Origin: a virus
Virus record (IMG/VR): IMGVR_UViG_3300017752_000192
Location: 1 to 22,079 of that record
DNA: 22,079 nucleotides
Direction: 5' to 3' (one strand)
Position numbers and translations under genes: made by a program. Shown in pieces: positions 3,297 through 16,448 of the stretch; within the stretch, counting starts at the first letter, position 1, and every line of letters starts with the position of its first letter. The notes under the pieces are model-generated. The model searched no databases, had not been told where the DNA came from, and worked only from the letters and a program-made list of their open reading frames with translations.

Positions 3297-3320
3297 AACA
3301 ATCTCCTCAACTCAGATACT

Positions 3321-3381
3321 ATTATCTCATATTTAGGGTACAAGCGCAACATTTCAAAAACCCTTATAGATCAACAGGTTA
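3321..3381 (-). promoter_or_regulatory. Early-type promoter module, copy at 3.35 kb
   Basis: On the minus strand the upstream element TAACCTGTTGATC begins at 3381. A TTGCGC -35 box (3344-3349) begins 32 bp later, and after 17 bp a GATAAT -10 box follows (3321-3326). The start of the transcript (GATAATAGTATCTGAGTTG and the following GAGGAG) is almost identical to that of the 14.4-kb copy, a longer match than promoter function needs. It drives the 39-aa and 121-aa genes. Confidence 0.75.
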
Positions 3382-3383
3382 CC

Positions 3384-3464
3384 CTACTCTTCCTCTTCAT
3401 TGAGGATCTCAGCGCCTATAACGAACACAGCACAGGCGACCACCAACAACATAAACACCGACAT
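3384..3464 (-). CDS. 26-aa membrane micro-protein
   Basis: The frame reads MSVFMLLVVACAVFVIGAEI then LNEEEE. This is one hydrophobic segment of about 17 residues followed by a strongly acidic tail. The ribosome site AGGAAG lies 5 bases before ATG. A near-consensus promoter (TTGACT, 17 bp, TAGAAT) lies just upstream, and a second promoter module follows directly downstream. The setting and the amphipathic design argue for a real single-pass inner-membrane peptide. Function is unknown; phage peptides of this kind include host-enzyme inhibitors and lysis regulators, but nothing here selects one. Confidence 0.65.
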   Translation of the reverse strand: MSVFMLLVVACAVFVIGAEILNEEEE

Positions 3465-3495
3465 CTCGACTTCCTTTTATCATCTTATACTGCCT

Positions 3496-3555
3496 ATTCT
3501 ACGGCATATAGAAGGAGAAGTCAACAACTTAATTCCCTGTAAAATCAACAACTTA
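3496..3555 (-). promoter_or_regulatory. Early-type promoter module, copy at 3.5 kb
   Basis: The minus strand carries TTGACT (3519-3524), a 17-bp spacer and TAGAAT (3496-3501), close to the sigma-70 consensus. The upstream element TAAGTTGTTGATTTTACAGG starts at 3555, 31 bp before the -35 box, one less than in the other copies. The -35 region itself repeats the element (TAAGTTGTTGACTT), so two copies are stacked here. It drives the 26-aa membrane peptide and probably the genes beyond. Confidence 0.78.
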
Positions 3556-3570
3556 GAACTTTTTTTAAAT

Positions 3571-3592
3571 CTCCTGTAGAATCAACAAGTTA
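3571..3592 (-). repeat. Third copy of the TTGTTGATT upstream element
   Basis: The minus strand reads TAACTTGTTGATTCTACAGG, nearly the same as the element 37 bp downstream (TAAGTTGTTGATTTTACAGG). No good -35/-10 pair sits at the expected distance from this copy. It is therefore more likely an extra binding site than a promoter of its own. Confidence 0.6.
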
Positions 3593-3671
3593 CTAACTTT
3601 AGTTCGCTATTCGCGTTTCAGGACAAATACAAAAATATTTCGCGAAACGAGACAAAAATAGGAGATCGACA
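3593..3671. other. Gene-free control region between diverging promoters, with a palindrome
   Basis: With the flanking modules this makes a gene-free stretch from 3465 to 3747. Inside is a perfect 10-bp palindrome TTTCGCGAAA (3638-3647). Two related stretches, TTCGCGTTTCAGGACAAAT (from 3610) and TTCGCGAAACGAGACAAAA (from 3639), form an imperfect direct repeat about 29 bp apart. The region separates the leftward early promoters from the rightward late promoter. An operator role is inference. Confidence 0.4.
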
Positions 3672-3679
3672 TATAAATA
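3672..3679 (+). promoter_or_regulatory. T4-type late promoter TATAAATA, plus strand
   Basis: The sequence CATATAAATAAATTC contains the exact late box TATAAATA. It is the only such box on the plus strand and lies about 70 bp upstream of the only plus-strand gene, which it presumably drives late in infection. Confidence 0.75.
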
Positions 3680-3747
3680 AATTCGTGACGTGGGATGTAT
3701 TCTTTGTAATTACTGTGCCATGATCACAAAGGCAATGGGAGGTTTCA

Positions 3748-4155
3748 ATGCCTAGCGAGCGAATTTCCGAAGTCGAAACGAAGTTGTTCACCCATGAAGG
3801 TCGCATCAAAAGTTATGAGCAGGATATGAGGCAACTCCAGGATAATGTTGACCGAATAGAGTCTCACTTGCTCGAAGTGAACTCACGCCCGTTTCCAATA
3901 GGGGCAGTCATATCTGGTGTTGTAGGTATACTTGGTGTCATGGGTACTGCTATCTTCGGAGTACTGAATTATGTCGATGGAAAGGTTGAGCAACAACTGC
4001 AAGTCTCAAACTATGTCGAGCGAAGAGTACAGACTAACGCTGATGAATTGGGGGATCTAACTACGATCCTTCATGACCGTGTTGGTCGCTTAGAAGAGAG
4101 AGTTGCGTCTCAAGGAAGAGAGATCGCCGGAACTAGACATAACCATTCGCAATGA
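3748..4155 (+). CDS. Coiled-coil protein with one membrane segment, the only plus-strand gene
   Basis: The 135-residue protein has a charged N-terminal coiled coil (about 1-45, with heptad-like ISEVETKLFTHEGRIKSYEQDMRQL), a hydrophobic segment at about 50-73 (FPIGAVISGVVGILGVMGTA and following residues) and a second coiled coil to the C terminus. There is no cleavable signal peptide, so it is probably an inner-membrane or virion-associated bitopic protein. The ribosome site GGGAGG lies 5 bases before ATG. It stands alone between a late promoter and a strong terminator. Its layout recalls spanin, holin-accessory or superinfection-exclusion proteins, but no sequence match supports any of these. 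Confidence 0.85.
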   Translation: MPSERISEVETKLFTHEGRIKSYEQDMRQLQDNVDRIESHLLEVNSRPFPIGAVISGVVGILGVMGTAIFGVLNYVDGKVEQQLQVSNYVERRVQTNADELGDLTTILHDRVGRLEERVASQGREIAGTRHNHSQ

Positions 4156-4212
4156 AGTCTGCAATGCTGGTCGTACCAGAGCAAAGAAGACGCAAGGATG
4201 CATTTTAATTTC

Positions 4213-4238
4213 GGGGGCGGATTTGCCCCCATTTTTTT
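4213..4238 (+). terminator. Rho-independent terminator
   Basis: GGGGGC and GCCCCC form a perfect 6-bp stem with a 6-base loop (GGATTT), followed by A and seven T. It lies 57 bp past the stop of the plus-strand gene and ends that transcript. On the minus strand the stem is followed by GAAATT, so it should be weaker in that direction. Confidence 0.92.
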
Positions 4239-4240
4239 AC

Positions 4241-4312
4241 CTATTGATTGTGACCCCGCTCAATGCCTTTCAAGAGTCTCCTCACAAACCCTTCACAATC
4301 ATACCCTATCAT
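4241..4312 (-). CDS. Possible 23-aa peptide
   Basis: A short frame encodes MIGYDCEGFVRRLLKGIERG and three more residues, a basic amphipathic helix. It starts 13 bp after the HAD gene stop and ends next to the terminator stem. AGGGG precedes the ATG but only two bases away, which is poor spacing. It may be a genuine micro-gene at the end of the operon or chance; coding evidence is thin. Confidence 0.35.
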   Translation of the reverse strand: MIGYDCEGFVRRLLKGIERGHNQ

Positions 4313-4325
4313 TTCCCCTGTAAAC

Positions 4326-4907
4326 CTATCGATTTACTGTTGTGTACACATCCTTCCAGTTACGGACGAACTGTGCTTCGCCGACATAGGACTTATTGTG
4401 GTCATGCTCCATGAGGAGAGAACGTAGACCTGCCCTCGTGCCGACATCTGCGTTAGCAGGTTTATCTTCAACCCACCAACACTCGGTGCCTCTGTACTCT
4501 TCTAGCGCGTCATCTTTATCCGCGCCTGTATCTAGATATACAAATCTCTCGAACACAGATGGACCATATAACTCGATAAGGTTCTTCGTGCGCAAGTGCT
4601 GTGCATACTGGTCGTTCGTCATCGAGGTGATTACGTGAAAGACATAACCAAACTCCTCGTGTAACTTTCGTACATACTTAACTGAATCTCGCAGAGGTGG
4701 CAACTTGCGTATTGTGGCAGACTCGTTAAACATCCGAACAAGACGTCTGGTTTCTAGCGCCGAGATGCCATAGCGTTCCTTCATAGCGTAGTCTGTGGCA
4801 TGAGACTCATCTGCCTCGTACCCATATCTCGACATCCACTGACCAAAGGAGTAACTCCAATCAAGGAGTACTCCATCAACGTCTGTTAGAATTACTTTAT
4901 CTTTCAT
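4326..4907 (-). CDS. HAD-superfamily phosphatase, possibly 5'-nucleotidase-like
   Basis: The N terminus VILTDVDGVLLDW is HAD motif I (DxDG), with Asp9 as nucleophile and Asp11 as acid/base. A threonine/serine after a hydrophobic strand (HVITSMT) fits motif II. ECWWVEDKPANAD fits motif IV, with acidic residues for magnesium. The size and the phage setting fit small HAD enzymes that dephosphorylate deoxynucleotides or polynucleotide ends. The exact substrate is not visible. It follows the 96-aa gene with a 2-bp gap and has no strong ribosome site, which suggests translational coupling. Confidence 0.85.
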   Translation of the reverse strand: MKDKVILTDVDGVLLDWSYSFGQWMSRYGYEADESHATDYAMKERYGISALETRRLVRMFNESATIRKLPPLRDSVKYVRKLHEEFGYVFHVITSMTNDQYAQHLRTKNLIELYGPSVFERFVYLDTGADKDDALEEYRGTECWWVEDKPANADVGTRAGLRSLLMEHDHNKSYVGEAQFVRNWKDVYTTVNR

Positions 4908-4909
4908 AA

Positions 4910-5200
4910 TTAATGCCCAGTGTTCTCTTCGTCTTTCCTTCGAAGCAGATAGTCGACATGGTCGAGATTCAAAGGTTCACGATCAAATGCATTCATCATG
5001 TTACACATACCCTCATACAACTCATCGGGCACATCGCCGAATGGGTTCGCTGGGGTGTCACAATAGAAGGTCACATTACCGTCAAGGTCATAGAACACCT
5101 CATGGATCATATATCCAAGAAGTGGTTCCGTCTTAGGGCGATGTGCAATTCTGAAGTCGCTATTGGTGGCAATGTTATTCCACTCCGTGGTCTTCTTCAT
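4910..5200 (-). CDS. 96-aa unknown protein
   Basis: This soluble protein, MKKTTEWNNIATNSDFRIAH and onward, has a central YDLDGNVTFYCDTPANPFGD stretch and an acidic C terminus. I recognise no family. The start overlaps the end of the nuclease gene by 26 bp and is supported by a GAGG ribosome site 7 bases upstream. It sits between the PD-(D/E)XK nuclease and the HAD phosphatase, so a role in DNA or nucleotide metabolism is possible but not shown. Confidence 0.75.
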   Translation of the reverse strand: MKKTTEWNNIATNSDFRIAHRPKTEPLLGYMIHEVFYDLDGNVTFYCDTPANPFGDVPDELYEGMCNMMNAFDREPLNLDHVDYLLRRKDEENTGH

Positions 5201-5867
5201 ATTGATCCCTCAACTTAATAAACTCTGGTATCCACTCGTCCCTGTCCTCAATGAACACTTGCGAGTCTCCCTCAGCGGAAGTAATGATGGTTACAAGTTG
5301 TGATACAGGTTGCCCTGTCATCTCTTCGAACATAACAGCATACGCTGCTTCCTGCTTGAAGTAGTTATAGATTTTGGATCTAGTCTTGCGACGTGCAGCG
5401 GTCTTCCAGTCAATGACGGAGAGTTTGCCATTAAACTCTGCAATCATATCTACGGTGCCTGCTGTGCGGAGGTGATCAGAATACATTAGACCCTCGATCA
5501 CCTTGATGTTGTCAATACTTTCATTGGCAACGGTTCTGAGTCGAGTAAACATTTCAAGAGCGTTGGGCATTACTACGCCCTCTGTCTCTTGGTTTGAGCA
5601 ATAGTCTTCGATCAACTGGTGGACCGAGGTGCCTCGCTGAGACGCTTGGGTACTGACTCGTTGTGCTTCTTCCTTACCTACTCGTCTGCGCCACTGCGCT
5701 AGACCTGCCTGTAACTTCTTACAGGAGGAGGTGACTGTTGTCACAGAAGGATAGGGCATAGCAATCTCCCCGTCGTCGCGAACGTAATGTCGCTTTCCAT
5801 CGATGTTGACCCGTTTGATCTTAGGAAGGTCAACTAACTGCAAGTTGAACTGTTTTCTATCACTCAT
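5175..5867 (-). CDS. PD-(D/E)XK nuclease, RecB/Cas4-like exonuclease
   Basis: Motifs of the RecB-type nuclease domain appear in order: SVTTVT near 41-46; RGTSVHQLIEDY (79-89) with the conserved His83; GTVDMIAEF (137-145) with Asp140; VIDWKTA (151-157) with the catalytic Asp153 and Lys155; and KQEAAYAVMFEE (171-182), the QxxxY motif of RecB/Cas4/lambda-exonuclease relatives. At 230 aa it is a single-domain nuclease. No Fe-S cysteine cluster of Cas4 type is visible. It likely processes DNA ends in phage recombination or degrades host DNA. A TTGACT/TAGAAT promoter lies upstream. Confidence 0.9.
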   Translation of the reverse strand: MSDRKQFNLQLVDLPKIKRVNIDGKRHYVRDDGEIAMPYPSVTTVTSSCKKLQAGLAQWRRRVGKEEAQRVSTQASQRGTSVHQLIEDYCSNQETEGVVMPNALEMFTRLRTVANESIDNIKVIEGLMYSDHLRTAGTVDMIAEFNGKLSVIDWKTAARRKTRSKIYNYFKQEAAYAVMFEEMTGQPVSQLVTIITSAEGDSQVFIEDRDEWIPEFIKLRDQYEEDHGVE

Positions 5868-5895
5868 AATACATACTCATTATACAATACAATCT

Positions 5896-5923
5896 ATTCT
5901 ACTCATACTACCAGGAAAGTCAA
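5896..5923 (-). promoter_or_regulatory. Sigma-70-type promoter before the nuclease gene
   Basis: The minus strand has TTGACT (5918-5923), a 16-bp spacer and TAGAAT (5896-5901) in the 57-bp gap before the PD-(D/E)XK gene. It lacks the TTGTTGATT upstream element of the promoter modules. A second TATAAT (5879-5884) lies nearer the gene without a matching -35 box. Confidence 0.6.
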
Positions 5924-5924
5924 A

Positions 5925-6302
5925 TTACTCTCCTGCAAAAGAATCGGTCTCAGAGTAGACAGCATCGATGCCTTCAGTCTTCAGAAGAGTCTTCTTCGCT
6001 GACTTAAAAAGGTTCTTGTTCTCTTTGCGCCACTTCCGTGCCAACTGCCCGTCCTGCCCGAAGTCGGCATTACCCAACGCCCAAGACTTCTGTACCGTCT
6101 GGAGCATATGAACTTGCACAGGGTCGCCGTCTTGCTCAAACGTCCACATAAAGTAGATTCGTCCATACGCATCATGCGCCGCCATTGCTTCTTGCTCGAA
6201 GTGAGCGGAAAGTCTCTCGACCGCGAAAAGTGCAGCTGGAGCGAGTTCTTCGATTCCCTGCTTGCGGAGAGTTATGATTGGTTTCTGATCACTGTCTGAC
6301 AT
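5925..6302 (-). CDS. 125-aa unknown protein behind a late promoter
   Basis: This soluble protein has a FAVERLSAHFEQEAMAAHDA helix, a YGRIYFMWTFEQDGDPVQVH strand-rich centre and a lysine-rich helix KWRKENKNLFKSAKKTLLK near the C terminus. I recognise no family. The ribosome site AGAGGA precedes ATG at 6302. A perfect late box TATAAATA lies 30 bp upstream, so this gene is probably switched on late even though its neighbours look early or constitutive. Confidence 0.78.
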   Translation of the reverse strand: MSDSDQKPIITLRKQGIEELAPAALFAVERLSAHFEQEAMAAHDAYGRIYFMWTFEQDGDPVQVHMLQTVQKSWALGNADFGQDGQLARKWRKENKNLFKSAKKTLLKTEGIDAVYSETDSFAGE

Positions 6303-6331
6303 TATAAAATCCTCTTTGGTATGTGCGCATA

Positions 6332-6339
6332 TATTTATA
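6332..6339 (-). promoter_or_regulatory. T4-type late promoter TATAAATA
   Basis: The minus strand reads GACGTATAAATATATGC, an exact late box. The TAA inside the box is the stop codon of the 94-aa gene upstream, so promoter and coding end are superposed. It points at the 125-aa gene. Confidence 0.7.
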
Positions 6340-6619
6340 CGTCACCTTCGGTCGCCTTTCCCTGCCTTAGAATCTCACCAGCAAAGTACACGTCCTTGAC
6401 ATGACTCTCATAGCAGTGGTCTTCATCCCAGAAGAACACCTTGTTGAGCAACTCGTATGCCTTGCTCCAGATAGGTTCGTTCCTGTGGCGATAGCACCTA
6501 GCAGAAATGGTCTCGTCGGGATTGCCATACAAGAAGATTGCGTTACCCGACTGGGATAACAGAACGAATATTCGCTCGCCAAAACCAAAGACGAACTTAA
6601 AGACTGCGTTGTCTGTCAT
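6335..6619 (-). CDS. Conserved small phage protein with a GNPDETISARCYR motif
   Basis: The 94-aa protein contains GNPDETISARCYRHR (about 31-45) and FFWDEDHCYESH (about 62-73). I recall the same pair of motifs from small proteins in many tailed phages of Proteobacteria, all of unknown function. There is no signal peptide; the N-terminal hydrophobic stretch is short. The stop codon lies within the late promoter at 6332-6339. The ribosome site AGGATAAG precedes the ATG, and the stop of the 73-aa gene overlaps the start. Confidence 0.8.
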   Translation of the reverse strand: MTDNAVFKFVFGFGERIFVLLSQSGNAIFLYGNPDETISARCYRHRNEPIWSKAYELLNKVFFWDEDHCYESHVKDVYFAGEILRQGKATEGDV

Positions 6620-6837
6620 GACTTATCCTCAATGTAGCAGGGCGCATCCTCAAGTTTGCCGATCATATCTGAGACGATATCGCTCGCCGCGATCATGGCA
6701 TTGATGCAGTCATTTATCGCCTCACGGTCGATATCGACTCCCTGTTCAACGGCACCTTTGTCCGCTTCGGTCAAATTAACAATAGCGCCTGTCAGCGATC
6801 CATTCGCCTCAATCAGGTTTTGAAAAATACCTTTCAC
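6616..6837 (-). CDS. 73-aa acidic helical protein, GTG start
   Basis: This is a small acidic protein without motifs I know; its composition suggests two or three helices. It starts with GTG at 6837, supported by GAGGAG 6 bases upstream. The GTG shares its G with the TAG stop of the preceding gene, and its end overlaps the next ATG. This is tight coupling in a run of small genes from 7.5 to 5.9 kb. Confidence 0.72.
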   Translation of the reverse strand: MKGIFQNLIEANGSLTGAIVNLTEADKGAVEQGVDIDREAINDCINAMIAASDIVSDMIGKLEDAPCYIEDKS

Positions 6838-7157
6838 TATGATCTCCTCATCTGGGCGATTTCCGTCGCCTGTTCTTGATTGATAACTGGCACAGCATTA
6901 CTTTTGTGCATCGTAGCGATGCCAGTAACGAGTGTCCCTGTATACTCTTTGCGCTCAGGCGCAGCGTTGACTGTAGGCGCACCCAGATCGACAGAAGAAA
7001 TCTCTGGTTGATCTGAGTCACGTCGGTACGGTTGACTCGCCGAGGTCTTCATGGACTCGAACGGTCGGGGTGTATACTTCTCGAACACTTCACCCTTGGG
7101 TGCCTTCTTCTTGATCTTGCGACCAGAGAAGTCGTGTGTCATAGAACCATGCTTCAT
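6837..7157 (-). CDS. 106-aa protein with basic N terminus
   Basis: The longest open frame starts at 7184, but ATG at 7157 is the better start: it has AAAGGATG upstream and overlaps the previous stop as ATGA. The product MKHGSMTHDFSGRKIKKKAP continues with KYTPRPFESM. It has a basic N-terminal part and a low-complexity, probably disordered middle. The FSGRKIKKKAPKG and YTPRPFE motifs recall a small conserved phage protein family without known function. DNA or RNA binding is possible from the charge but not shown. Confidence 0.78.
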   Translation of the reverse strand: MKHGSMTHDFSGRKIKKKAPKGEVFEKYTPRPFESMKTSASQPYRRDSDQPEISSVDLGAPTVNAAPERKEYTGTLVTGIATMHKSNAVPVINQEQATEIAQMRRS

Positions 7158-7327
7158 GAAACATCCTTTTCTTCGATAGACCAAACTCGGTCAGGGTATT
7201 GCTCTTCCAACTCGATAACCATGGACAACGCTTGACTCGCGCTGTAGGCGGTGTAAGTGTACGGCGACTCACCTTCCTTTCCGTCCCATTGATCCTTATA
7301 GGTGATCATCCAGATTGATTCGTTCAT
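7154..7327 (-). CDS. 57-aa unknown protein
   Basis: The frame encodes MNESIWMITYKDQWDGKEGE, then YTYTAYSASQALSMVIELEE and a C-terminal RVWSIEEKDVS. ATGA overlaps at both ends (start with the previous stop, stop with the next ATG) and normal codon use support a real gene. The pattern of one strand pair, a helix and a final strand fits a small alpha/beta fold. Function is unknown. Confidence 0.72.
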   Translation of the reverse strand: MNESIWMITYKDQWDGKEGESPYTYTAYSASQALSMVIELEEQYPDRVWSIEEKDVS

Positions 7328-7512
7328 GCTGTATGACCTGCCATGGCGAGAATCGCCGCGTTGTCTGGATCGGCGAGTGCCTTCTCCGTGATTAAATCTT
7401 CAACGATGTTCAAGGCACTGATCAATCCAGCAACCGCTTCCTCGTCTTGGTGCGTATCTGCCCAAGTAATCTCGGCGTTGATCAAGTCACGTGCTTCAAG
7501 TAGATACTTCAT
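7324..7512 (-). CDS. 62-aa helical protein, first gene of an operon
   Basis: The product MKYLLEARDLINAEITWADT continues as an acidic, alanine-rich helical protein without known motifs. GAGGG lies 6 bases before the ATG. It is the first gene behind the promoter module at 7540-7601 and is coupled to the 57-aa gene by ATGA, so it is probably one of the early products. Confidence 0.75.
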   Translation of the reverse strand: MKYLLEARDLINAEITWADTHQDEEAVAGLISALNIVEDLITEKALADPDNAAILAMAGHTA

Positions 7513-7539
7513 TGCTTACCCTCACTCAATTGAAATACT

Positions 7540-7601
7540 ATTATCGTCCATATGGTAGGACAATGGCAAAGTTAAAAAAAGTGAATAGAATCAGTAGGTT
7601 A
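7540..7601 (-). promoter_or_regulatory. Early-type promoter module, copy at 7.55 kb
   Basis: The minus strand has the element TAACCTACTGATTCTATTCA starting at 7601, TTGCCA (7564-7569) 32 bp later, an 18-bp spacer and GATAAT (7540-7545). The TAA of the element is the stop codon of the 199-aa oxygenase upstream. The transcript start GATAATAGTAT matches the 3.35- and 14.4-kb copies. Confidence 0.78.
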
Positions 7602-8198
7602 CACTCTACCGAAATTGAAAGAGATGGCGGTCCGCTCGAACTCGCCTGTCTGTGGACCCTGTGGACCAATCTGATGCTCCAACCATGGGTTCCAGAAAAG
7701 CATCATCCCCGTCTTGGGTTTGACCCTATGCAACCAACCAGCGCACCTATCGGGGGAGGGTTCGCTCATACCTGCTATGGTATACAGCGGGGACTTAAAC
7801 ACCAACGGACAAGACTGTTCGTCAGCATATGGATAGTAAGTGCCTGCAACGCAGCATTTGGGGTGATTGTGGAATGTGTGGAAGTCATACTCCCTGTAAA
7901 CTGACCACCATGCATGGACCATATCTGCGTATTTGTTATGAGCAACTCCCTGATTCTCAAGGAACATCACCGCGCCTGCTTTTATACATTTCTTCAGATC
8001 TTCCCAATAGGGCATTCTCTGGTTCAGTTTATGGTTATTCAAATCGTTATTGAAGTATGATGTGTACGCATCGTCGAAAGAATCCTTCAGCGATTCCTTA
8101 CAGAATTGCGCGATCTCTTGATGCGGTAGTTCGACATCGGTGGTCAGGATGTTTATGTCTTTGGGGAAGGGATCCTTGAAAGAAAACTCTCGTATCAT
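7599..8198 (-). CDS. 2OG-Fe(II) oxygenase-like protein
   Basis: The second half shows the double-stranded beta-helix pattern of phage 2-oxoglutarate/Fe(II) oxygenases: FHTFHNHPKCCVAGTYYPY (106-124) with metal-binding His110/His112, GMMLFWNPWLEHQIGP (164-179) with the distal His175, and FERTAISFNF (187-196) with Arg189, likely for 2-oxoglutarate. This resembles the phage family annotated as TIGR02466-type putative 2OG oxygenases. The substrate is unknown; related enzymes hydroxylate proteins or nucleobases. The start overlaps the stop of a second oxygenase gene, so the two are made together. Confidence 0.85.
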   Translation of the reverse strand: MIREFSFKDPFPKDINILTTDVELPHQEIAQFCKESLKDSFDDAYTSYFNNDLNNHKLNQRMPYWEDLKKCIKAGAVMFLENQGVAHNKYADMVHAWWSVYREYDFHTFHNHPKCCVAGTYYPYADEQSCPLVFKSPLYTIAGMSEPSPDRCAGWLHRVKPKTGMMLFWNPWLEHQIGPQGPQTGEFERTAISFNFGRV

Positions 8199-10053: not shown

Positions 10054-10060
10054 AACATTA

Positions 10061-10089: not shown

Positions 10090-10092
10090 CAC

Positions 10093-11658
10093 TTATTTCT
10101 TATCAGTTAGATCATACGCCCCCATGTATGCTCTAGAGTCTTCCGAGATATAATCTTCTTCGTCGTCTTCCGAGGTGACGACTTGGTAATCGCTCCAGTC
10201 CTCATCGTGTGGTATTGGATCTTCTTCCAACCACTCGTCAGGTTCTTCAATGGGGTGCACCTTCCCTGACCAAGATACGTCTATTGGGTGCGGTTCCTGA
10301 GGGATGATCTCTTCAACGTCAACAACGTTGTTTGGGTCGACTCGCATATTCCCGTCGTCGTAGAATATCTTGTCCTTCTTAGAACGACGGAACTCCATAG
10401 AGGCAGCGAGTAACAGCACCACAGCAAGTGGGTCGAATACTATGACCAACAGGATGATAACAAACCTGACTGCCTTGTCGAGGTATGCTCCTGCGTCCTC
10501 GCCATAGATCAGTTCTGCAATATACTTTAGTGGACCAACCTCTGCTTCCAGATCACGCACACTGCTTTCGAGCACAAACTTCTCTTCGCGCAGGGTATCC
10601 ATCTCAGCATAGTATTGATCTATCTCTGCCTCTAGGTTAGAAACCAGATTGTCAGCGGATACTTCCTTGTCGCCGATCCTGCTTTGTAGCGACTGTATCT
10701 CGGTATTCGCTGCGTCGACTTCTGCTTGTGCTGATGCTCTAAGTTCTTCGATTTTAGTCTGTCGTGGTTTAATGTCGTTCACGAGGGCAGCACGTAGTGC
10801 CACGATTTCTGCCTGTACCTCCTCGGACACCTCTATCTCCTTCTCGCGAAGGGATGTGATATCTGCGTCAAGTACCTGTATCTGCGCACCAAGTTCCTCT
10901 CGACGCGTTTCCTGCTCTGCTCGGAGAGACTTAGCATCCTCGGTCCAGTCTTTCTTGACCGAACCGAATGCGCCCTTCTCAATACCCTTCTCTGATAGAG
11001 CACGAACTTCCGCGTCCATCGTTTTAATCTCGTCGCGAATACGCTCTATGGATCGCTCTTTGGTCTGCACGTCTTCCTTTACTCGTGACTGAGCAACCCC
11101 GATACGATCCTGCTGTACCCTTATGTCAACACCCAGTTGATCCCGTAGACTCTGTATCTGTGCCTCTTCGCTCGCTATGGCATCACCAATACGATCCCAC
11201 GCGCTGTCGATAACTTGTTCCTGTCGTGCAATACTTCGCTCGACCGATCCGGATGTACTCGTCGAGTCGCCTATCCTTTCGATCTTTTGCTCTGTTGCCA
11301 AGACTCTACCTTCGAACCTAGCAATCTTATCATCAAGACGTTCGACCTTCGCGCCTACTTGAGATGATTCGCCTACTTGTTCGGTGTGTGCCTTGGACAG
11401 GAATCCAAAGATCCCTAGTGATGTGATGAACATTAGGACTGCCACCGCGCTAGTGAGATATGTTCTCATCAACCACGGAACCTGTGACCAGTTGGAATGT
11501 AACCACGCAGCGGTGACCAACTTTCCAACCTCGAGCACGCCACCCATGATGGCGATAGGGATAACAGATCCTGAGAAAATCGCGATAAGTCCCGCGATAC
11601 TATACCATGCTGCGACTCCAGCAATGGAGAATGATGTTGCAAGTGTTAGGTATTTCAT
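10093..11658 (-). CDS. Large membrane-anchored coiled-coil protein, 521 aa
   Basis: The architecture is clear. Three membrane segments lie at about 8-30, 33-53 and 67-88. A long charged coiled coil follows at about 95-385, rich in E/R/K/Q with heptads such as QIQVLDADITSLREKEIEVSEE. A fourth membrane segment lies near 396-420 (VRFVIILLVIVFDPLAVVLL). The acidic, proline-containing tail has about 98 residues. I recall similar proteins with the 'RFVIxxxVxVFDPLAVxLLxAAxxxF' segment in marine T4-like phages, without known function. The coiled coil probably lies on one face of the inner membrane, pinned at both ends. The gene follows the SleB hydrolase by 4 bp, which hints at a lysis or envelope role, but that is inference. 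Confidence 0.88.
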   Translation of the reverse strand: MKYLTLATSFSIAGVAAWYSIAGLIAIFSGSVIPIAIMGGVLEVGKLVTAAWLHSNWSQVPWLMRTYLTSAVAVLMFITSLGIFGFLSKAHTEQVGESSQVGAKVERLDDKIARFEGRVLATEQKIERIGDSTSTSGSVERSIARQEQVIDSAWDRIGDAIASEEAQIQSLRDQLGVDIRVQQDRIGVAQSRVKEDVQTKERSIERIRDEIKTMDAEVRALSEKGIEKGAFGSVKKDWTEDAKSLRAEQETRREELGAQIQVLDADITSLREKEIEVSEEVQAEIVALRAALVNDIKPRQTKIEELRASAQAEVDAANTEIQSLQSRIGDKEVSADNLVSNLEAEIDQYYAEMDTLREEKFVLESSVRDLEAEVGPLKYIAELIYGEDAGAYLDKAVRFVIILLVIVFDPLAVVLLLAASMEFRRSKKDKIFYDDGNMRVDPNNVVDVEEIIPQEPHPIDVSWSGKVHPIEEPDEWLEEDPIPHDEDWSDYQVVTSEDDEEDYISEDSRAYMGAYDLTDKK

Positions 11659-11662
11659 AGTT

Positions 11663-12151
11663 CTACTGCCTGTAAAAGATATGATTGTTTACTTTACTCA
11701 CTTTAATCATTGTATGTGCCCAGTATGGGGTGACGTGTACCGCATGATACCACATGGCACCTTGCGTGAAGTCTTGCCCCGATAATCGATAGAATGTGAC
11801 CGCAGATACCAACTTTGCGTTCTTCCACTCAACCGAATCATAATCTATGACTTCTGGTTTGCCGTCGCAATACCAACTGAATTGACATGCGTTACGAATG
11901 GGGACCAGTTCCCCAGTCTTCCAGGACGGATGCAACTTTGCCTGTTTGACAACGCCACAAACCGAGTCTGGGAATCTAGATGATTCGACTCGGTTCATTG
12001 TGACGTGTCCAACTGCTTCCATACCCTTAATGCCTTCGCCCCGAGACTCGTGATATATGTTCTCAGCGAGGCAGGTTATTTCGGATTCATCTTTCACGCC
12101 ATAGGCATAAGAGATACTAGGGATCAATAGAAACAACAGCAGGTATTTCAT
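11663..12151 (-). CDS. Secreted cell-wall hydrolase, SleB/Hydrolase_2 family; likely lysin
   Basis: An N-terminal signal peptide (MKYLLLFLLIPSISYAYG, cleavage near residue 17) is followed by the SleB-type catalytic domain: CLAENIYHESRGEG (27-40) with the catalytic Glu in YHESRGE, VGHVTMNRVESSRFPDSVCGVV (47-68), CQFSWYCDG (89-97) and a C-terminal GAMWYHAVHVTPYW. The family cleaves peptidoglycan glycan strands. With its own signal peptide it can reach the periplasm by the Sec route without a holin pore. Full length for the domain, 162 aa. Start at 12151; GAGTG is a weak ribosome site. Confidence 0.92.
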   Translation of the reverse strand: MKYLLLFLLIPSISYAYGVKDESEITCLAENIYHESRGEGIKGMEAVGHVTMNRVESSRFPDSVCGVVKQAKLHPSWKTGELVPIRNACQFSWYCDGKPEVIDYDSVEWKNAKLVSAVTFYRLSGQDFTQGAMWYHAVHVTPYWAHTMIKVSKVNNHIFYRQ

Positions 12152-12157
12152 GAAGTA

Positions 12158-12427
12158 TCACTCGTCGTGATTCTCGGCGACCATGCCCATCTTCTTCAGG
12201 TCTTCGTGTTCGCCAGAAACCTTAAACATTCTTCCGTCTGCCATCGCTAGGGTCAGAACCTTATTCATGACTCTCAGCGAGGTGTTAGGATATTTAGGAT
12301 GCGCAGCATATTTGAATCCTACATGAACCACTTCGCCATACAGGGTATGTCCAGATTCAGTCTTCCAAGATACGTTGCGCCCTTTGACATCTACAGGTGA
12401 TGGGATTACTTTCTTTGCCTTTGCCAT
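12158..12427 (-). CDS. 89-aa unknown protein, small beta-rich domain
   Basis: ATG at 12427 is preferred over 12445 because AAGGAA lies about 7-9 bases upstream. The product MAKAKKVIPSPVDVKGRNVS goes on with short strands (HTLYGEVVHVGFKYAAH, SLRVMNKVLTLAMADGRMFKVSG), which suggests an SH3-like barrel. It is basic at the N terminus. No family assigned. It lies between the 59-aa gene and the lysin in one operon. Confidence 0.75.
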   Translation of the reverse strand: MAKAKKVIPSPVDVKGRNVSWKTESGHTLYGEVVHVGFKYAAHPKYPNTSLRVMNKVLTLAMADGRMFKVSGEHEDLKKMGMVAENHDE

Positions 12428-12445
12428 AATAAAATTCCTTTTCAA

Positions 12446-12625
12446 TTAGTCTGTCAGTAAGACTTTTGCATCAGTCTTCTGAATAAAATTACCAGTGTTC
12501 ATAGAGTCGCCCGTCTTGACATAATACTCTTGCGGGGTCTCATAGATGACTTCGAATACTTGCCCGACGGCATGCTCATACCAGACTAGACTGGCAGCGG
12601 GTGGACTTGTGATGACTACTTTCAT
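12446..12625 (-). CDS. 59-aa unknown protein
   Basis: The frame MKVVITSPPAASLVWYEHAV continues GQVFEVIYETPQEYYVKTGD and ends with a strand-rich C terminus (FIQKTDAKVLLTD). The start overlaps the previous stop as ATGA, and it fills the 195-bp gap exactly. A small beta protein without known family; the GQVFEVIYETPQEYYV stretch looks like an SH3-type barrel. The coupling makes a real gene likely. Confidence 0.72.
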   Translation of the reverse strand: MKVVITSPPAASLVWYEHAVGQVFEVIYETPQEYYVKTGDSMNTGNFIQKTDAKVLLTD

Positions 12626-12915
12626 GACATGAATGCCTCTAGCGAATTATAGGTTGCGTTCTTCCAAGGGTCGGAAGTGAATGGGGTGACGAATACATCA
12701 GGGATTGGTTCGCGCAACTCCTTGAATGCTCGGTGCTTCTTACTGAACAGGAATAACTTTGAAAACTTTTCCCACTCATGGGTGCCTGCCTTACGCATAG
12801 CAACCAGACGACCACCGTGTCCACCTTCGATCAGGTAGTCGTGTTGGGGCACCTCGTACTCCACTTTGGAATACTTCGTCGTTTCCCTCATAATCTTGAG
12901 TTTGATATCACTCAC
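12622..12915 (-). CDS. 97-aa unknown phage protein, GTG start
   Basis: This soluble protein has a central HDYLIEGGHGGRLVAMRKAG motif (about 25-44) and FSKLFLFSKKHRAFKELREP. I recognise no domain. It starts with GTG at 12915, whose GTGA overlaps the stop of the 86-aa gene. Its own stop overlaps the ATG of the 59-aa gene. Confidence 0.78.
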   Translation of the reverse strand: MSDIKLKIMRETTKYSKVEYEVPQHDYLIEGGHGGRLVAMRKAGTHEWEKFSKLFLFSKKHRAFKELREPIPDVFVTPFTSDPWKNATYNSLEAFMS

Positions 12916-13172
12916 TTAATGTCTCCAGCAATCAACTCATCATAGGATTGTGCCACGAACTCTTGCTTGCGGTTCTGCTTGCTGTAATACAGACCAGGTT
13001 TGTCGTCACCGCCATATGTCAGAACAGTCTCGAATCCCTTCTCTGGGTCTTCCATAATCTGCTTGCCAGAGTGGAGCATTGAAACAGGATCTTTGAAGTT
13101 GACTACTTTGCACGGTTCTGAATTCGCCGCTTCTTGTGGCGTCAGGATTGCTTTATAATAATGGACTTTCAT
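12912..13172 (-). CDS. 86-aa unknown protein
   Basis: A soluble, charged protein beginning MKVHYYKAILTPQEAANSEP, without recognisable motifs. Its ATG directly abuts the TGA stop of the exported 110-aa protein, and its stop overlaps the next GTG. It is probably translated by coupling within the operon that starts at the 13.6-kb promoter module. Confidence 0.75.
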   Translation of the reverse strand: MKVHYYKAILTPQEAANSEPCKVVNFKDPVSMLHSGKQIMEDPEKGFETVLTYGGDDKPGLYYSKQNRKQEFVAQSYDELIAGDIK

Positions 13173-13505
13173 TCACTCTACCTCAGTTGCTTCCACGATT
13201 GGTTTTAATATTTGGTCACGAACAGACAAGTATGGGGCGCACTCTCCGCTGATCGTCGTTGTGTATCTGGTCATTCGCTTATACTTTCGGTCTTTCTCAC
13301 TCGATGTGCTTACCACTACGGTGCTGGTCTTATCGAAGGTGAACCCCATTGCGGTGCATCCCATCGCTGCTTTGAACTGAGCATTGAGAAGAGATACATC
13401 CTTCGTGTTGCCAGATCCTGTTACCTCAGAGATAGATGGTAGGGTAGTCGCCGAGGCAAATGAACCTACAATCAGGAACGGTGCTAGTGCTAGTGCGATT
13501 TTCAT
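13173..13505 (-). CDS. Small exported protein, 110 aa
   Basis: A clean signal peptide (MKIALALAPFLIVGSFASA, cleavage near residue 19) leads a mature part of about 91 residues with two cysteines (MGCTAMGF, GECAPYL), enough for one disulfide in the periplasm. No family recognised. The ribosome site AAGGAAG is well placed. It is the first gene behind the promoter module at 13549-13610, with a late-like GATAAATA box at 13534-13541 between promoter and start codon. Confidence 0.82.
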   Translation of the reverse strand: MKIALALAPFLIVGSFASATTLPSISEVTGSGNTKDVSLLNAQFKAAMGCTAMGFTFDKTSTVVVSTSSEKDRKYKRMTRYTTTISGECAPYLSVRDQILKPIVEATEVE

Positions 13506-13533
13506 ACATACTTCCTTAACATGGGTGTTACCT

Positions 13534-13541
13534 TATTTATC
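13534..13541 (-). promoter_or_regulatory. Late-promoter-like GATAAATA box
   Basis: The minus strand reads TTGATAAATAAGG, one base off the late consensus TATAAATA, 29 bp before the start of the exported 110-aa gene. The same GATAAATAA sequence stands at 15337-15344 in the matching place before another exported protein. It could give both genes a second, late start; one mismatch makes this uncertain. Confidence 0.4.
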
Positions 13542-13548
13542 AAGAGAT

Positions 13549-13610
13549 ATTGTATCTCGCCGACTCGCATAAGGACAACTTTTAGAATATTGAATACAAT
13601 CAACGAGTTA
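13549..13610 (-). promoter_or_regulatory. Early-type promoter module, copy at 13.6 kb
   Basis: The element TAACTCGTTGATTGTATTCA starts at 13610 on the minus strand. TTGTCC (13573-13578) follows 32 bp later, then 18 bp and TACAAT (13549-13554). The TAA is the stop codon of the zinc-ribbon membrane protein. Confidence 0.75.
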
Positions 13611-14141
13611 GCGAATATCCGCCTGTCTCTTCTTGATTGCGGCGATCGCCTCCTCGCGCTTGTTTTGATATGTCGCAGAGACCATCATAAGACCGAAAGA
13701 AAGTAATCCATGTGTCCAGAAGAAACTACTTTCTAGGTTCAAGTAGAACAACCAGTTGAAAACTATTGACCCCAAGAAGAACAGAAAGTACAGCGCCATT
13801 GGTACTTGCAGGGCAGCAAACTGCCCCTCAGACAGACGGATCTTTCCTTCAACCTTCGCCTGCTGGACAGCGTTGTTTTGTGCTACTGCTTCGTTGTGAC
13901 CCGAACAATCAAGGCACTTCCAAACGGTACGGTTGCGAGTATACGAACGACGGTTGTTTGCAACGACAGTCTTCTTGACCTTCTTTGCAGCAGTATCACT
14001 GACCATCGCAAATGCGAGGTTGCCAGCGGTAACTTTGTTGTCGGAGCGACCAGAGTTATATGACTCGGTTACCCTCTCCATCATATTCGCAGGATTCTTG
14101 ATCCCACAATCGTAACAAGTCTTGCGCGCATAGTTTGCCAT
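13608..14141 (-). CDS. Membrane protein with N-terminal zinc ribbon, 177 aa
   Basis: Two CxxC pairs, C9YDC12 and C76LDC79, can form a four-cysteine zinc site; the first is followed by GIKNP and the second by SGHNE. Between them is a basic, serine/asparagine-rich stretch (NNRRSYTRNR). Two membrane segments lie at about 113-133 and 140-158, then a basic C-terminal helix. Both termini are probably cytoplasmic. Zinc-ribbon domains joined to two membrane helices occur in uncharacterised bacterial proteins; the role here is unknown. Strong ribosome site GAGGGAGAG. Confidence 0.83.
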   Translation of the reverse strand: MANYARKTCYDCGIKNPANMMERVTESYNSGRSDNKVTAGNLAFAMVSDTAAKKVKKTVVANNRRSYTRNRTVWKCLDCSGHNEAVAQNNAVQQAKVEGKIRLSEGQFAALQVPMALYFLFFLGSIVFNWLFYLNLESSFFWTHGLLSFGLMMVSATYQNKREEAIAAIKKRQADIR

Positions 14142-14142
14142 A

Positions 14143-14373
14143 TTACTCTCCCTCTTCCTCAGTAGGATAACGCTCAGCAGAGACGTTCAGATACTTCACG
14201 ACCAGAGGCATCATGACCTCGATGTCCGCCTCACGGTCTTCCTCAGCAACGTTCTCGCTGTGCTTCAGACCAATCATGGCACCCAACAAACAATCCAGAA
14301 GGTTTTGCATATCTTCGTTCATGCTAACGCCCGCACGCTCACGTGGGGTTGGAAACTCGATTACTTCACTCAT
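14143..14373 (-). CDS. 76-aa acidic protein
   Basis: The product MSEVIEFPTPRERAGVSMNE is a small soluble protein with a central helix (MQNLLDCLLGAMIGLKH) and an acidic C terminus ending EEEGE. The N-terminal 'VIEFPTPxxR' stretch is frequent in small phage and plasmid proteins of unknown role. It is the first gene after the 14.4-kb promoter module, with GAGGAG 10 bases before the ATG. The zinc-ribbon gene starts 1 bp after its stop. Confidence 0.78.
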   Translation of the reverse strand: MSEVIEFPTPRERAGVSMNEDMQNLLDCLLGAMIGLKHSENVAEEDREADIEVMMPLVVKYLNVSAERYPTEEEGE

Positions 14374-14399
14374 TTCTTGCTCTCCTCAACTCAGATACT

Positions 14400-14461
14400 A
14401 TTATCGCCGAAAGTGTAGTACAGTGGCAACAATAATAAAGGTGAATAAAAACAATAACTTA
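14400..14461 (-). promoter_or_regulatory. Early-type promoter module, copy at 14.4 kb
   Basis: The element TAAGTTATTGTTTTTATTCA begins at 14461 on the minus strand; its TAA is the stop codon of the membrane protein upstream. TTGCCA (14424-14429) follows 32 bp later, then 18 bp and GATAAT (14400-14405). The transcript start repeats that of the 3.35-kb copy almost base for base. Confidence 0.78.
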
Positions 14462-14716
14462 CGTGGGGAAATATATTTGGATAAGGGATGTTGCGAGGAG
14501 CAGACCCATGACTCCATTCAGGAGGATCAGGGCGCGGTCGTGCCACATGATTGAGACGGTCGTCCAACCTATGGTGGCGAGAAATCCTATGGCGATATCA
14601 TACTCTCGGTATTCTGGTCCAGCGGATCGGAATGCCACGCTGGTTAGTATCAGGATGGTCGAGACCCACTTCAGGTACCAGTCGATCCCGCCTGTTGTTC
14701 GCTTTCCTTCAGTCAT
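14459..14716 (-). CDS. Small polytopic membrane protein, 85 aa
   Basis: From ATG at 14716 (ATGA overlap with the previous stop) the product starts MTEGKRTTGGIDWYLKWVST and has three hydrophobic segments (about 13-32, 40-57 and 61-82) with short loops. I recall small three-helix proteins with the 'YLKWVST' start in marine phages, of unknown function. Holin-like size and topology make a lysis role conceivable, but the lysin is 2.3 kb away in another operon. The stop codon is embedded in the promoter element. Confidence 0.8.
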   Translation of the reverse strand: MTEGKRTTGGIDWYLKWVSTILILTSVAFRSAGPEYREYDIAIGFLATIGWTTVSIMWHDRALILLNGVMGLLLATSLIQIYFPT

Positions 14717-14877
14717 ACCCTGATCCACATATCCTTGTACATCTCGTCATCTGGACCCATGAGGGCAATAAGTTCCATGGACTGTAGCATCTCGCTCCAG
14801 CTGGAAGTTTGATAGAAGTTATGAAGTAGACCCATGTTGAGCGGGTCTATTCGGACGGTAAAAAACGAAGTTTCCAT
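14713..14877 (-). CDS. 54-aa unknown protein
   Basis: ATG at 14877 is chosen because it lies 7 bp after the protease gene stop. The longer frame from 15000 would lie inside that gene. The product starts METSFFTVRIDPLNMGLLHN and is acidic and methionine-rich in its second half (SMELIALMGPDDEMYKDM). Soluble; no family. The stop overlaps the next ATG. Confidence 0.68.
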   Translation of the reverse strand: METSFFTVRIDPLNMGLLHNFYQTSSWSEMLQSMELIALMGPDDEMYKDMWIRV

Positions 14878-14884
14878 ATCAATC

Positions 14885-15313
14885 TCACTTAACAAATGCA
14901 GTAGGTGCCCATGATTTATGCGCTTGGTCCAACCAGCGACGCTGGATATGACCACTACGACGCTGGATCGAAGTAGGCATCTCTTCATGTGCCCAACCAT
15001 AACAATGCTTCAACTCATGACGAACGGTAATATCATCAGCATTAACTTTCATGAAGACGTTACAGGCAAACTCAGTACGCGAGATTTCACCAGTAGCATT
15101 ATCACGATACACACGCTTAGAAGTCAGGGCACAACCAAGAGCGTTCTTGCCACAGACTTTACGAACTTTAAAGTTATCACGGACAACGTTAATCTCAACG
15201 GGATCAATCAGTTTCTCATAATCAACACCAGCAACGCCTACATCATGAGCGCCTGCATCACCCAGAGCGGGGATAGAGACAGCGAGAGCGAGAGCAGCGA
15301 TTACGTTTTTCAT
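14885..15313 (-). CDS. Secreted metzincin-like zinc protease candidate
   Basis: A signal peptide (MKNVIAALALAVSIPALGDA, cleavage near residue 20) leads a mature protein of about 122 residues. HELKHCYGWAH at 99-109 is an exact HExxHxxGxxH, the three-histidine zinc motif of metzincin metalloproteases, with Glu100 as catalytic base and a conserved-looking glycine turn. Four cysteines (54, 61, 84, 104) could form two disulfides. The domain is far smaller than typical metzincins; short proteins with RHELKHC-like motifs occur on plasmids and phages without assigned function. A possible Met-turn (EEMPTS, about 110-115) follows very closely, nearer than usual. It would act in the periplasm or outside. 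Strong ribosome site AAAGGGA and strong promoter module upstream. Confidence 0.75.
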   Translation of the reverse strand: MKNVIAALALAVSIPALGDAGAHDVGVAGVDYEKLIDPVEINVVRDNFKVRKVCGKNALGCALTSKRVYRDNATGEISRTEFACNVFMKVNADDITVRHELKHCYGWAHEEMPTSIQRRSGHIQRRWLDQAHKSWAPTAFVK

Positions 15314-15336
15314 TTTTTTATTTCCCTTTCAGACTT

Positions 15337-15344
15337 TATTTATC
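15337..15344 (-). promoter_or_regulatory. Late-promoter-like GATAAATA box
   Basis: The minus strand reads GTTGATAAATAAAG, one mismatch from TATAAATA, 24 bp before the protease start. Together with the identical box at 13534 it suggests that some exported proteins may have both early and late transcription. Confidence 0.4.
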
Positions 15345-15359
15345 AACCTTACAAGACAT

Positions 15360-15420
15360 ATTATAGCATATGTTAAGTACAACGACAAGATTAAGAAACC
15401 TGAATGAAAACAACAACTTA
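15360..15420 (-). promoter_or_regulatory. Early-type promoter module, copy at 15.4 kb (perfect TATAAT)
   Basis: The element TAAGTTGTTGTTTTCATTCA starts at 15420 on the minus strand. TTGTCG (15383-15388) begins 32 bp later, then 17 bp and a perfect TATAAT (15360-15365). It drives the metzincin-like gene and its followers. An extra element lies directly upstream as a 27-bp tandem repeat. Confidence 0.85.
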
Positions 15421-15447
15421 CGAAACCTGAATGAAATCAATAACTTA
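15394..15447 (-). repeat. Two tandem 27-bp copies of the promoter upstream element
   Basis: On the minus strand, 15447-15421 and 15420-15394 are two 27-bp units, TAAGTTrTTGwTTTCATTCA followed by GGTTTCk, identical at 24 positions. The TAA of the first unit is the stop codon of the cytochrome c gene. Duplication of this element alone, in phase with itself, suggests a protein-binding site rather than a chance AT-rich spacer. Confidence 0.85.
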
Positions 15448-15717
15448 CAGCGTTTTAACGTATGCGGCGATCGCCTCGATCTGTTCTGGAGTGAGTCCAG
15501 ACGCCTGACTTACCATAATGGCGTTACCCTCTCCTGCCTTGAACGACCTCAGAAGGGCAGCGATGTCCCTCCCAGCGAGCGCGGGACCGATCCCACCTTC
15601 TCCTTGGGCACCGTGACATGCGCCACAGATACGGAATCTCGCCTCTCCCTCAGACATCGGGTCGGCATTACATCCCACTGATACCAGCAGGGCGAACATT
15701 GCTATCGAATATTTCAT
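15445..15717 (-). CDS. Exported c-type cytochrome, 90 aa
   Basis: A signal peptide (MKYSIAMFALLVSVGC, with a cysteine at 16 that might be lipid-modified although the lipobox is poor) precedes a class I cytochrome c domain. CGACH (31-35) is the haem-binding CxxCH. GIGPALAGRD (43-52) is the usual Gly-Pro-x-Leu-x-Gly loop. Met68 is a candidate sixth haem ligand. The C-terminal helix LTPEQIEAIAAYVKTL closes the fold. At about 72 mature residues it is a minimal single-haem cytochrome. It would need host cytochrome maturation in the periplasm and could move electrons to or from host respiratory partners. ATGA overlap with the GIY-YIG-like gene upstream; ribosome site AAGGAA. Confidence 0.9.
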   Translation of the reverse strand: MKYSIAMFALLVSVGCNADPMSEGEARFRICGACHGAQGEGGIGPALAGRDIAALLRSFKAGEGNAIMVSQASGLTPEQIEAIAAYVKTL

Positions 15718-16274
15718 AATAGTTCCTTTTGGATAAATTGGATTAAGTCTCCCAGTTGCTCAGCAGACATCGCCTTACAGTATTCTTTCACCATTACTTC
15801 TGGACCTTGGTGCCCATCGACCTCAGGCAACCGACCATACTGGTCCTTGTATTCTGACAGGAGAAGAGACTCCATGCCATGAGCAGATAGTTTGACGGCA
15901 TCACCAAACCCCATCGGGTAGTATGCCACATACAGGTGACGTCTGTTCTCTTCGCCGAACAGAGCACGAAAGTACATCCCATTCTCATAAGGATTCTTTT
16001 GTGCCAGTCCCCTCATGACAGTACCAGAGAAATCCATGGTGCGGTTGCACATGCCCCGTGCCACAGATGACCCAGCGGTTCCGATGTAGATGACTCGCTC
16101 GTCGAGATGGTCTACAGATTGGGTCGCGATCTCGCCTGTCGGGTCATACGCATACAGGTAGCACCCTCCCTGATTGTACCCATACTCGTCTTTCTTATCG
16201 AACCCGACATAGTCGCTGTCAAACTTAGCACGCTTGTCATTCGGGAAGATTGGTAACCAGTTAGTCCAACTCAT
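15714..16274 (-). CDS. GIY-YIG nuclease-like protein
   Basis: GCYLYAYDP (37-45) and RVIYIGTAGSS (60-70) are spaced like the GIY and YIG strands of this nuclease fold. They are followed by arginines in VARGMCNRT (71-79) and a candidate catalytic Glu135 in SAHGMESLLLSEYKDQYGRL. The GIY-YIG fold cuts DNA in homing endonucleases and repair enzymes. There is no attached DNA-binding module such as NUMOD or zinc finger and no intron nearby, so a free-standing nuclease or a non-catalytic relative are both possible. The start overlaps the stop of a 30-aa peptide gene. Confidence 0.65.
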   Translation of the reverse strand: MSWTNWLPIFPNDKRAKFDSDYVGFDKKDEYGYNQGGCYLYAYDPTGEIATQSVDHLDERVIYIGTAGSSVARGMCNRTMDFSGTVMRGLAQKNPYENGMYFRALFGEENRRHLYVAYYPMGFGDAVKLSAHGMESLLLSEYKDQYGRLPEVDGHQGPEVMVKEYCKAMSAEQLGDLIQFIQKELL

Positions 16275-16363
16275 ATGAACAACACCAACATACCGCCTAA
16301 CGTGGCACCCATTGCGATGATCACTAGCAACCCGATGAAATCATTACCAATATCGTTCTTCAT
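16271..16363 (-). CDS. 30-aa membrane micro-protein
   Basis: The frame reads MKNDIGNDFIGLLVIIAMGA then TLGGMLVLFI, a short charged N terminus and one membrane helix. It has a ribosome site (GGAG, 6 bases before ATG), an ATGA overlap with the GIY-YIG-like gene, and an early-type promoter module ending 25 bp upstream. It has the same position and design as the 26-aa peptide at 3.4 kb. Function is unknown. Confidence 0.7.
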   Translation of the reverse strand: MKNDIGNDFIGLLVIIAMGATLGGMLVLFI

Positions 16364-16387
16364 AACTATCTCCATACTTGAACCACT

Positions 16388-16448
16388 ATTCTATCGCAGT
16401 ATAAGATTAAAGACAATATTCATTAAACTGAACGAAATCAACAACTTA
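16388..16448 (-). promoter_or_regulatory. Early-type promoter module, copy at 16.4 kb
   Basis: The element TAAGTTGTTGATTTCGTTCA starts at 16448 on the minus strand. TTGTCT (16411-16416) follows 32 bp later, then 17 bp and TAGAAT (16388-16393). Here the element encodes the last residues of the radical SAM protein (V-S-C) and supplies its TGA stop. It drives the 30-aa peptide, GIY-YIG-like and cytochrome genes. Confidence 0.8.

Follow-up and report, generated by a model that had tools for sequence, protein, structure and literature searches.

What is recognised by a conserved 13-mer, TAAsTTGTTGATT, that stands at a fixed distance upstream of seven minus-strand promoter modules in an uncultured virus? 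The modules lie between positions 3321 and 16448 of the IMG/VR record IMGVR_UViG_3300017752_000192, of which positions 1 to 22,079 (22,079 nucleotides, hereafter the window) were analysed, and are named A to G in order of position (Table 1). The answer that we favour, and hold to be likely from the sequence evidence, is that they represent a sigma-70-type, probably early, promoter design assisted by integration host factor (IHF) and recurring within a clade of marine T4-like phages. This answer is built on a composite of near-invariant spacing, which is placed upstream of start codons, recurs in related records, fits the IHF consensus and is separate from the late promoters.

A sequence-only reading of the window had described seven sites of three parts, with an offset of 32 or 31 bp between element and -35 box and a spacer of 17–18 bp, and all seven modules were located at exactly those positions. 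In six copies the -35 TTG begins 32 bp past the start of the element, and in the 3.5-kb copy 31 bp past it; the -35 and -10 boxes are separated by 17 bp in the modules starting at 3321, 3496, 15360 and 16388, and by 18 bp in those starting at 7540, 13549 and 14400. When the composite was defined as an element matching at least 7 of 9 consensus positions, followed by TTG at +31/32 and a -10 box at 17/18, eight were counted in the window, whereas 200 dinucleotide shuffles gave 0.15 on average and never more than 1; the eighth may be a plus-strand candidate within a gene at 11783, which was listed by a looser scan. The interval between element and -35 box had been regarded as otherwise free to vary, but TATTCA or CATTCA recurs there, as that reading had itself noted for positions 15–20, together with a T-run at element positions 22–27. 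Both TATTCA and the T-run would belong to one and the same site, and the interval is thus constrained. The modules follow the grammar TAAGTYRTTGATT-N19-TTGnCTTTG-N14-nATAAT, and their -35 and -10 hexamers, whose spacing falls within the 16–18 bp of a sigma-70 promoter ahead of a gene start, have the form of such a promoter.

With regard to their placement, the -10 boxes lie 24–46 bp ahead of the next gene start in six of the seven modules, and no start codon with an open reading frame (ORF) of at least 30 aa was found downstream of module B, the 3496 copy. The description of the sites as intergenic stands insofar as they sit at gene boundaries, but not in the sense of long gaps. The upstream gene ends on the TAA of the element itself in the modules ending at 7601, 13610 and 14461, and the TGA stop of the upstream gene falls inside the element of the module ending at 16448.

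The published IHF consensus is WATCAANNNNTTR, and DNA bending by this protein reaches up to 180 degrees (PMC8942017). The reverse complement of the element is AATCAACAAsTTA, and that of TAASTTGTTGATT agrees with the IHF consensus at every specified position; the match is exact in modules B, D and G and in two extra cores at 3580 and 15435. The same scan applied to lambda attP returned H2 as AATCAACTACTTA and H' as AAAAAA-N8-TATCAATTTGTTG, with GCATTGCT as the N8 linker, and applied to the Mu early region it returned TATCAACGCGTTA at Mu 947. Furthermore, the order of parts in the module is that of lambda H', with the core at positions 1–13, an 8-nt linker at 14–21 and the T-run at 22–27. The A-tract found in H' 8 nt 5' of the core is present, T being found in 65–87% of sequences at columns 23–27 and in 35% at column 22 of a set assembled blind to the element. 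In promoter coordinates, the core AATCAA-N4-TTA occupies -67 to -55 on the opposite strand and the A-tract -46 to -41, nearly reaching the -35 box. On these grounds the 13-mer is a probable, predicted IHF-type binding site. The proposal of a protein-binding site at a fixed distance is in this way given a probable identity, in place of the unnamed activator or RNA polymerase alpha subunit that had been suggested to touch -55 to -68, since the 13-mer carries the IHF consensus and the A-tract stands in the matching register to it. UP elements are located at -58 to -37 (PMC2613000), so that the 13-mer lies almost wholly upstream of the region bound by the alpha C-terminal domain (CTD) in a simple promoter.

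Loci fetched with a pattern are biased toward the element, and the unbiased weight of the argument rests on tests that did not assume it. The element-blind test took only the right half of the module (TTG..TT, then ATAAT) as its starting point and covered the window together with four related records. Exact IHF consensus was found 32 bp upstream of 20 of the 35 right halves, and at none of the 32 other offsets examined for the same 35 right halves in five records. Of the right halves in all fetched loci, 37 match none of the patterns by which loci were retrieved, and their IHF score at -32 is bimodal: 16 score 8–9 out of 9, one scores 6 and 20 score at most 4. In eight of those 20, by a count made by eye, the core is displaced upstream by one base. 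Conservation in the element-blind set (n=23) amounts to 1.57–2.0 bits at the nine specified positions, and to 1.44, 1.57, 0.88 and 0.81 bits at the N columns, which are the least conserved of the 13-mer. The probability of an IHF consensus on either strand in the shuffled conserved block is 0.004, a value in which the consensuses of other factors are left uncounted.

The recurrence expected in related phages was borne out, a fixed-length module pattern giving 79 matches in 20 of 38 viral records; two of these matches (G025 and G027) are doubtful, and owing to near-duplicate records (G004/G007 and G009/G011) such counts are not counts of independent events. The reversed pattern gave no match in the 38 records and a spacing shifted by 1 bp only two, and since these controls have the same base composition, the module is not an A/T artefact. 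A wider scan retrieved 81 stretches in IMG/VR, and the strict pattern found no match in 257 Gb of bacterial and archaeal genomes. In a set of 45 modules from five records, from which a few low-quality matches had been removed by hand before the count, 38 have a gap of 19 and a spacer of 17, the next start codon follows the -10 box at a median of 31 bp, and the element TAA is the stop codon of the upstream open frame in 26. The module is kept upstream of the gene family of 2815–3180 and after a 2OG-oxygenase gene in all five records, and after a radical-SAM gene in three, and orthologous promoters are retained though the proteins are often only 33–63% identical. No module was found in the cultured phages nearest by gp20 (C48C1, Melnitz-3, Mosig, HTVC008M, S-SM2 and S-SCSM1), and a DNA similarity search against cultured phages returned nothing useful.

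Records G007 and G009 (151–154 kb) encode homologues of T4-type gp23, gp45, gp55, uvsY and regA, with gp20 in addition in G009, and gp55 and the major capsid protein are present in related records. The best cultured gp20 match is phage C48C1 (55%), listed under Kyanoviridae. Judged by gp20, gp23 and gp55, the module-bearing records, which come from uncultured marine phages, are T4-like. The T4-type late signal TATAAATA is concentrated in the intergenic DNA of G007 and G009 and occurs four times in the window, upstream of genes and away from the modules, at 3672 on the plus strand and at 1414, 6339 and 20652 on the minus strand. A T4 late promoter has TATAAATA at -10 and no -35 box, whereas the modules combine an ATAAT-like -10 with a -35. 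Attribution of the modules to an early regulon agrees with their being distinct from the late promoters; the early timing itself we infer from this distinctness and from the complete -35/-10 pair. MotA and AsiA were undetected in searches in which T4, as positive control, gave strong matches. No gene of the IHF/HU family (PF00216) was found in nine records, in a search with positive controls, and on that ground a phage-encoded IHF/HU was set aside as the bound factor; IHF would therefore have to be supplied by the host.

Several known systems can be set beside the modules. The phage Mu early promoter Pe is regulated by IHF (PMC3820752). The likeness lies in an IHF consensus site, TATCAACGCGTTA, in the region of an early phage promoter, but Pe is a single promoter with its IHF core on the opposite strand, whereas the modules are many per genome, have the core at -67 to -55 and turn the A-tract toward the -35 box. 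Pe also lies, presumably, further from its IHF core than the module promoters do. The lambda attP sites H2 and H' share the core consensus, and H' also the A-tract and 8-nt linker; the H2 core AATCAACTACTTA differs by one base from a core of the module set, AATCAACAACTTA. These attP sites serve recombination, however, and the modules are promoters. Stimulation of a sigma-70 early promoter by IHF is known from lambda pL (Giladi et al. 1998, cited in PMC2753651), but IHF is reported to act there with a distant UP element, and no conserved distal UP sequence is seen upstream of the modules; since a scan of lambda 35400–35900 gave no match at 8/9 of the IHF consensus, its geometry cannot be compared with that of the modules.

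Among T4 promoters, the early class shows a likeness in its many strong sigma-70 promoters, conserved upstream of -35 and used by the host polymerase (PMC2988021), but its architecture is UP/-35/TGn/-10, with IHF unmentioned in that review (PMC2988021), and the module has no consistent TGn. In some modules TTTGCTTTTG is superficially similar to the MotA box TTTGCTTTA of T4 middle promoters. A MotA-box reading was rejected, as the box occupies the -35 position with 17-bp spacing, and not -30 as in T4 middle promoters, and MotA and AsiA were not found. PeSL cassettes are likewise compact promoter units that recur in the intergenic DNA of T4-like phages, but they join a promoter to a stem-loop. 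The terminator scan showed no regular stem-loop at the modules, the only overlaps being two weak terminator-like ones at module C (7591–7612 and 7543–7564), and both a PeSL cassette and a terminator role for the T-run, which no regular stem-loop precedes, were discarded.

The mechanism that we propose is that of a sigma-70-type promoter (TTGnCTTTG at -35, 17–18 bp, ATAAT-like -10) with a predicted IHF site built in at a fixed place. Host IHF would bind at about -67 to -41 and sharply bend the DNA beside RNA polymerase, which would raise promoter occupancy or opening; the bend would wrap upstream DNA back onto the polymerase and its alpha CTDs, and the modules would be used early by the unmodified host enzyme. 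The T-run may double as a proximal UP subsite.

Several points weigh against this proposal. Modules C, E and F of the window match only 8 of the 9 consensus positions, and module A deviates from the IHF consensus, at the W position only. No conserved AT-rich distal UP sequence was found upstream of the element, which leaves the mechanism of lambda pL, with its distant UP element, unsupported in detail, and direct wrapping or an IHF–polymerase contact would be equally likely. The proposal also assumes that IHF is present in the phage's host. Positions 4–5 of the element (G and T, two of the four N) are more conserved than IHF requires, and the entire block from -67 to -25 is conserved, so that a phage-specific factor could be what is recognised. 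Finally, a leader, AGTATCTGArTTGAGGAGA, follows the -10 box in several modules (window 3300–3330 and 14370–14400, and G006), which suggests that whole promoter–leader units were copied; with duplication within a genome possible (shared leader AGTATCTGAGTTGAGGAGA), the copies are not all independent.

The excess conservation at positions 4–5 and in parts of the region down to -25 speaks for another reading, in which the element is the site of a phage-encoded, sequence-specific activator, a substitute for MotA, with an accidental resemblance to an IHF site and with promoters of the middle or delayed-early class. That the module was found in no searched bacterial genome also favours such a factor, as does the large number of genes without a known function in these phages, but we regard it as unlikely: chance would produce the fit to the IHF consensus with a probability of about 0.004, even with the A-tract register left out of account, the element varies most in its N columns, MotA and AsiA were not found, and a proper -35 box at optimal spacing leaves a MotA-like substitute unneeded. 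Direct contact of the alpha CTDs with the T-run and the 13-mer, as an extended UP element requiring no extra protein, is very improbable. The T-run at -46 to -41 does overlap the proximal UP position, and the early promoters of T4 are of a strong UP/-35/TGn/-10 type that has further conserved regions as well (PMC2988021); yet TAAsTTGTTGATT, the block of highest conservation (-67 to -55), falls nearly all upstream of the distal UP subsite at -58 to -45 (PMC2613000), forms no A/T tract, and contains a sequence-specific TTGAT for which the alpha CTD has no need.

Binding by IHF can also be accepted and its proposed role disputed. The effect of IHF on a promoter can have either sign, and the tandem cores without a promoter at the standard distance (3580, and 16895/16923 in G006) would suit a negative or structural action, in later switch-off or in organisation of the phage genome. 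We consider this improbable, as the 45 modules keep near-invariant distances to the -35 and -10 boxes, suggesting a role in promoter binding or opening, and a purely architectural organiser would need no fixed promoter distance. It is hardly credible, lastly, that the copies are recent duplications of one cassette whose spacing was kept by descent and not by function. The copies at 3321 and 14400 have a long common leader after the -10 box, and promoter cassettes (PeSLs) are known, as cited in PMC4503421, to shuffle genes in T4-like phages; against this, the same columns are kept in 62 modules that share less than 85% identity with each other, and orthologous promoters have retained the element within diverged surroundings. 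The IHF-assisted promoter design is the reading retained in what follows, and the coordinates on which it is based are collected in Table 1.

Table 1. Promoter modules and additional element copies in the window, with their neighbouring genes and orthologous promoters in related records.
Feature	Coordinates	Strand	IHF-like core or element	T-run	-35 box	Spacer	-10 box	Context
Module A	3321..3381	-	3369-3381 (TAACCTGTTGATC)	3355-3360	TTGCGC 3344-3349	17 bp	GATAAT 3321-3326	Upstream of 39-aa ORF and gene 2815-3180; orthologous promoter at same gene in G001, G006, G007, G009
Module B	3496..3555	-	3543-3555 (TAAGTTGTTGATT, exact consensus)		TTGACT 3519-3524, at +31	17 bp	TAGAAT 3496-3501	
Third element copy near 3.5-kb site	3519..3531	-	TAAGTTGTTGACT					Overlaps module B -35 box
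Extra upstream element copy, 3.5-kb site	3580..3592	-	TAACTTGTTGATT, exact IHF consensus					No own -10 at standard distance
Module C	7540..7601	-	7589-7601 (TAACCTACTGATT, 8/9 consensus positions)	Present	TTGCCA 7564-7569	18 bp	GATAAT 7540-7545	Upstream of gene 7324-7512; gene 7599-8198 ends on element TAA; orthologous promoters in G001, G006, G007, G009
Module D	13549..13610	-	13598-13610 (TAACTCGTTGATT, exact consensus)		TTGTCC 13573-13578	18 bp	TACAAT 13549-13554	Upstream of gene 13173-13505; element TAA is stop codon of gene 13608-14141
Module E	14400..14461	-	14449-14461 (TAAGTTATTGTTT, 8/9)		TTGCCA 14424-14429	18 bp	GATAAT 14400-14405	Upstream of gene 14143-14373; element TAA is stop codon of gene 14459-14728 (DUF6552); in G009 a module likewise follows the DUF6552 homologue
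Module F	15360..15420	-	15408-15420 (TAAGTTGTTGTTT, 8/9)		TTGTCG 15383-15388	17 bp	TATAAT 15360-15365	Upstream of gene 14885-15313; orthologue at G001 6003
Tandem element copy	15435..15447	-	TAAGTTATTGATT, exact consensus					27 bp upstream of module F; element TAA is stop codon of cytochrome c gene 15445-15717
Module G	16388..16448	-	16436-16448 (TAAGTTGTTGATT, exact consensus)		TTGTCT 16411-16416	17 bp	TAGAAT 16388-16393	Upstream of small ORF 16275-16364; gene 16438-17451 ends at TGA within element; orthologous promoters after radical-SAM gene in G001 and G006

Tandem IHF-like cores 24–37 bp apart are present both in the window (3519–3592) and in G006 (16895–16935), upstream of the same gene family, and the G006 pair at 16895/16923 has no -10 box at the standard distance. 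With regard to the genes of the region, a probable plus-strand gene at 3748–4230 (135 aa; inspection by eye suggests a coiled coil and a single membrane segment) is preceded by the late-type TATAAATA at 3672, and at 4213–4230 there is a terminator-like hairpin, strong and with a T-run. The small cytochrome c gene at 15445–15717 (minus strand) carries a cbb3-type subunit III domain. The DUF6552 gene at 14459–14728 (minus strand) is shared with C48C1 and with the Pelagibacter phages HTVC008M and Mosig; no relative that might point to the host was found in the searched bacteria or plasmids. The protein encoded at 15714–16274 (minus strand) shows by eye a GIY-YIG-like stretch (YLYAY...VIYIG), with no Pfam match.

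As for what the modules imply, we give about even chances to the broader proposition that a clade of lytic marine T4-like phages bases its early transcription on host IHF, with up to about 17 promoters per genome, a hard-wired bend abutting the -35 box and no phage transcription factor. IHF-aided phage promoters are already known, and what appears to be new is a repeated, rigidly spaced set of them in lytic T4-like phages; a literature search covering open-access papers found none on IHF sites in T4-like promoters. The promoter grammar allows probable early genes to be spotted directly in environmental sequences. If the involvement of IHF were confirmed, these phages would provide a clear case of a lytic lineage with a host architectural protein as general early activator, the fixed spacing earlier ascribed to an unknown activator would be explained, and early gene expression, and perhaps host range, would be tied to IHF.

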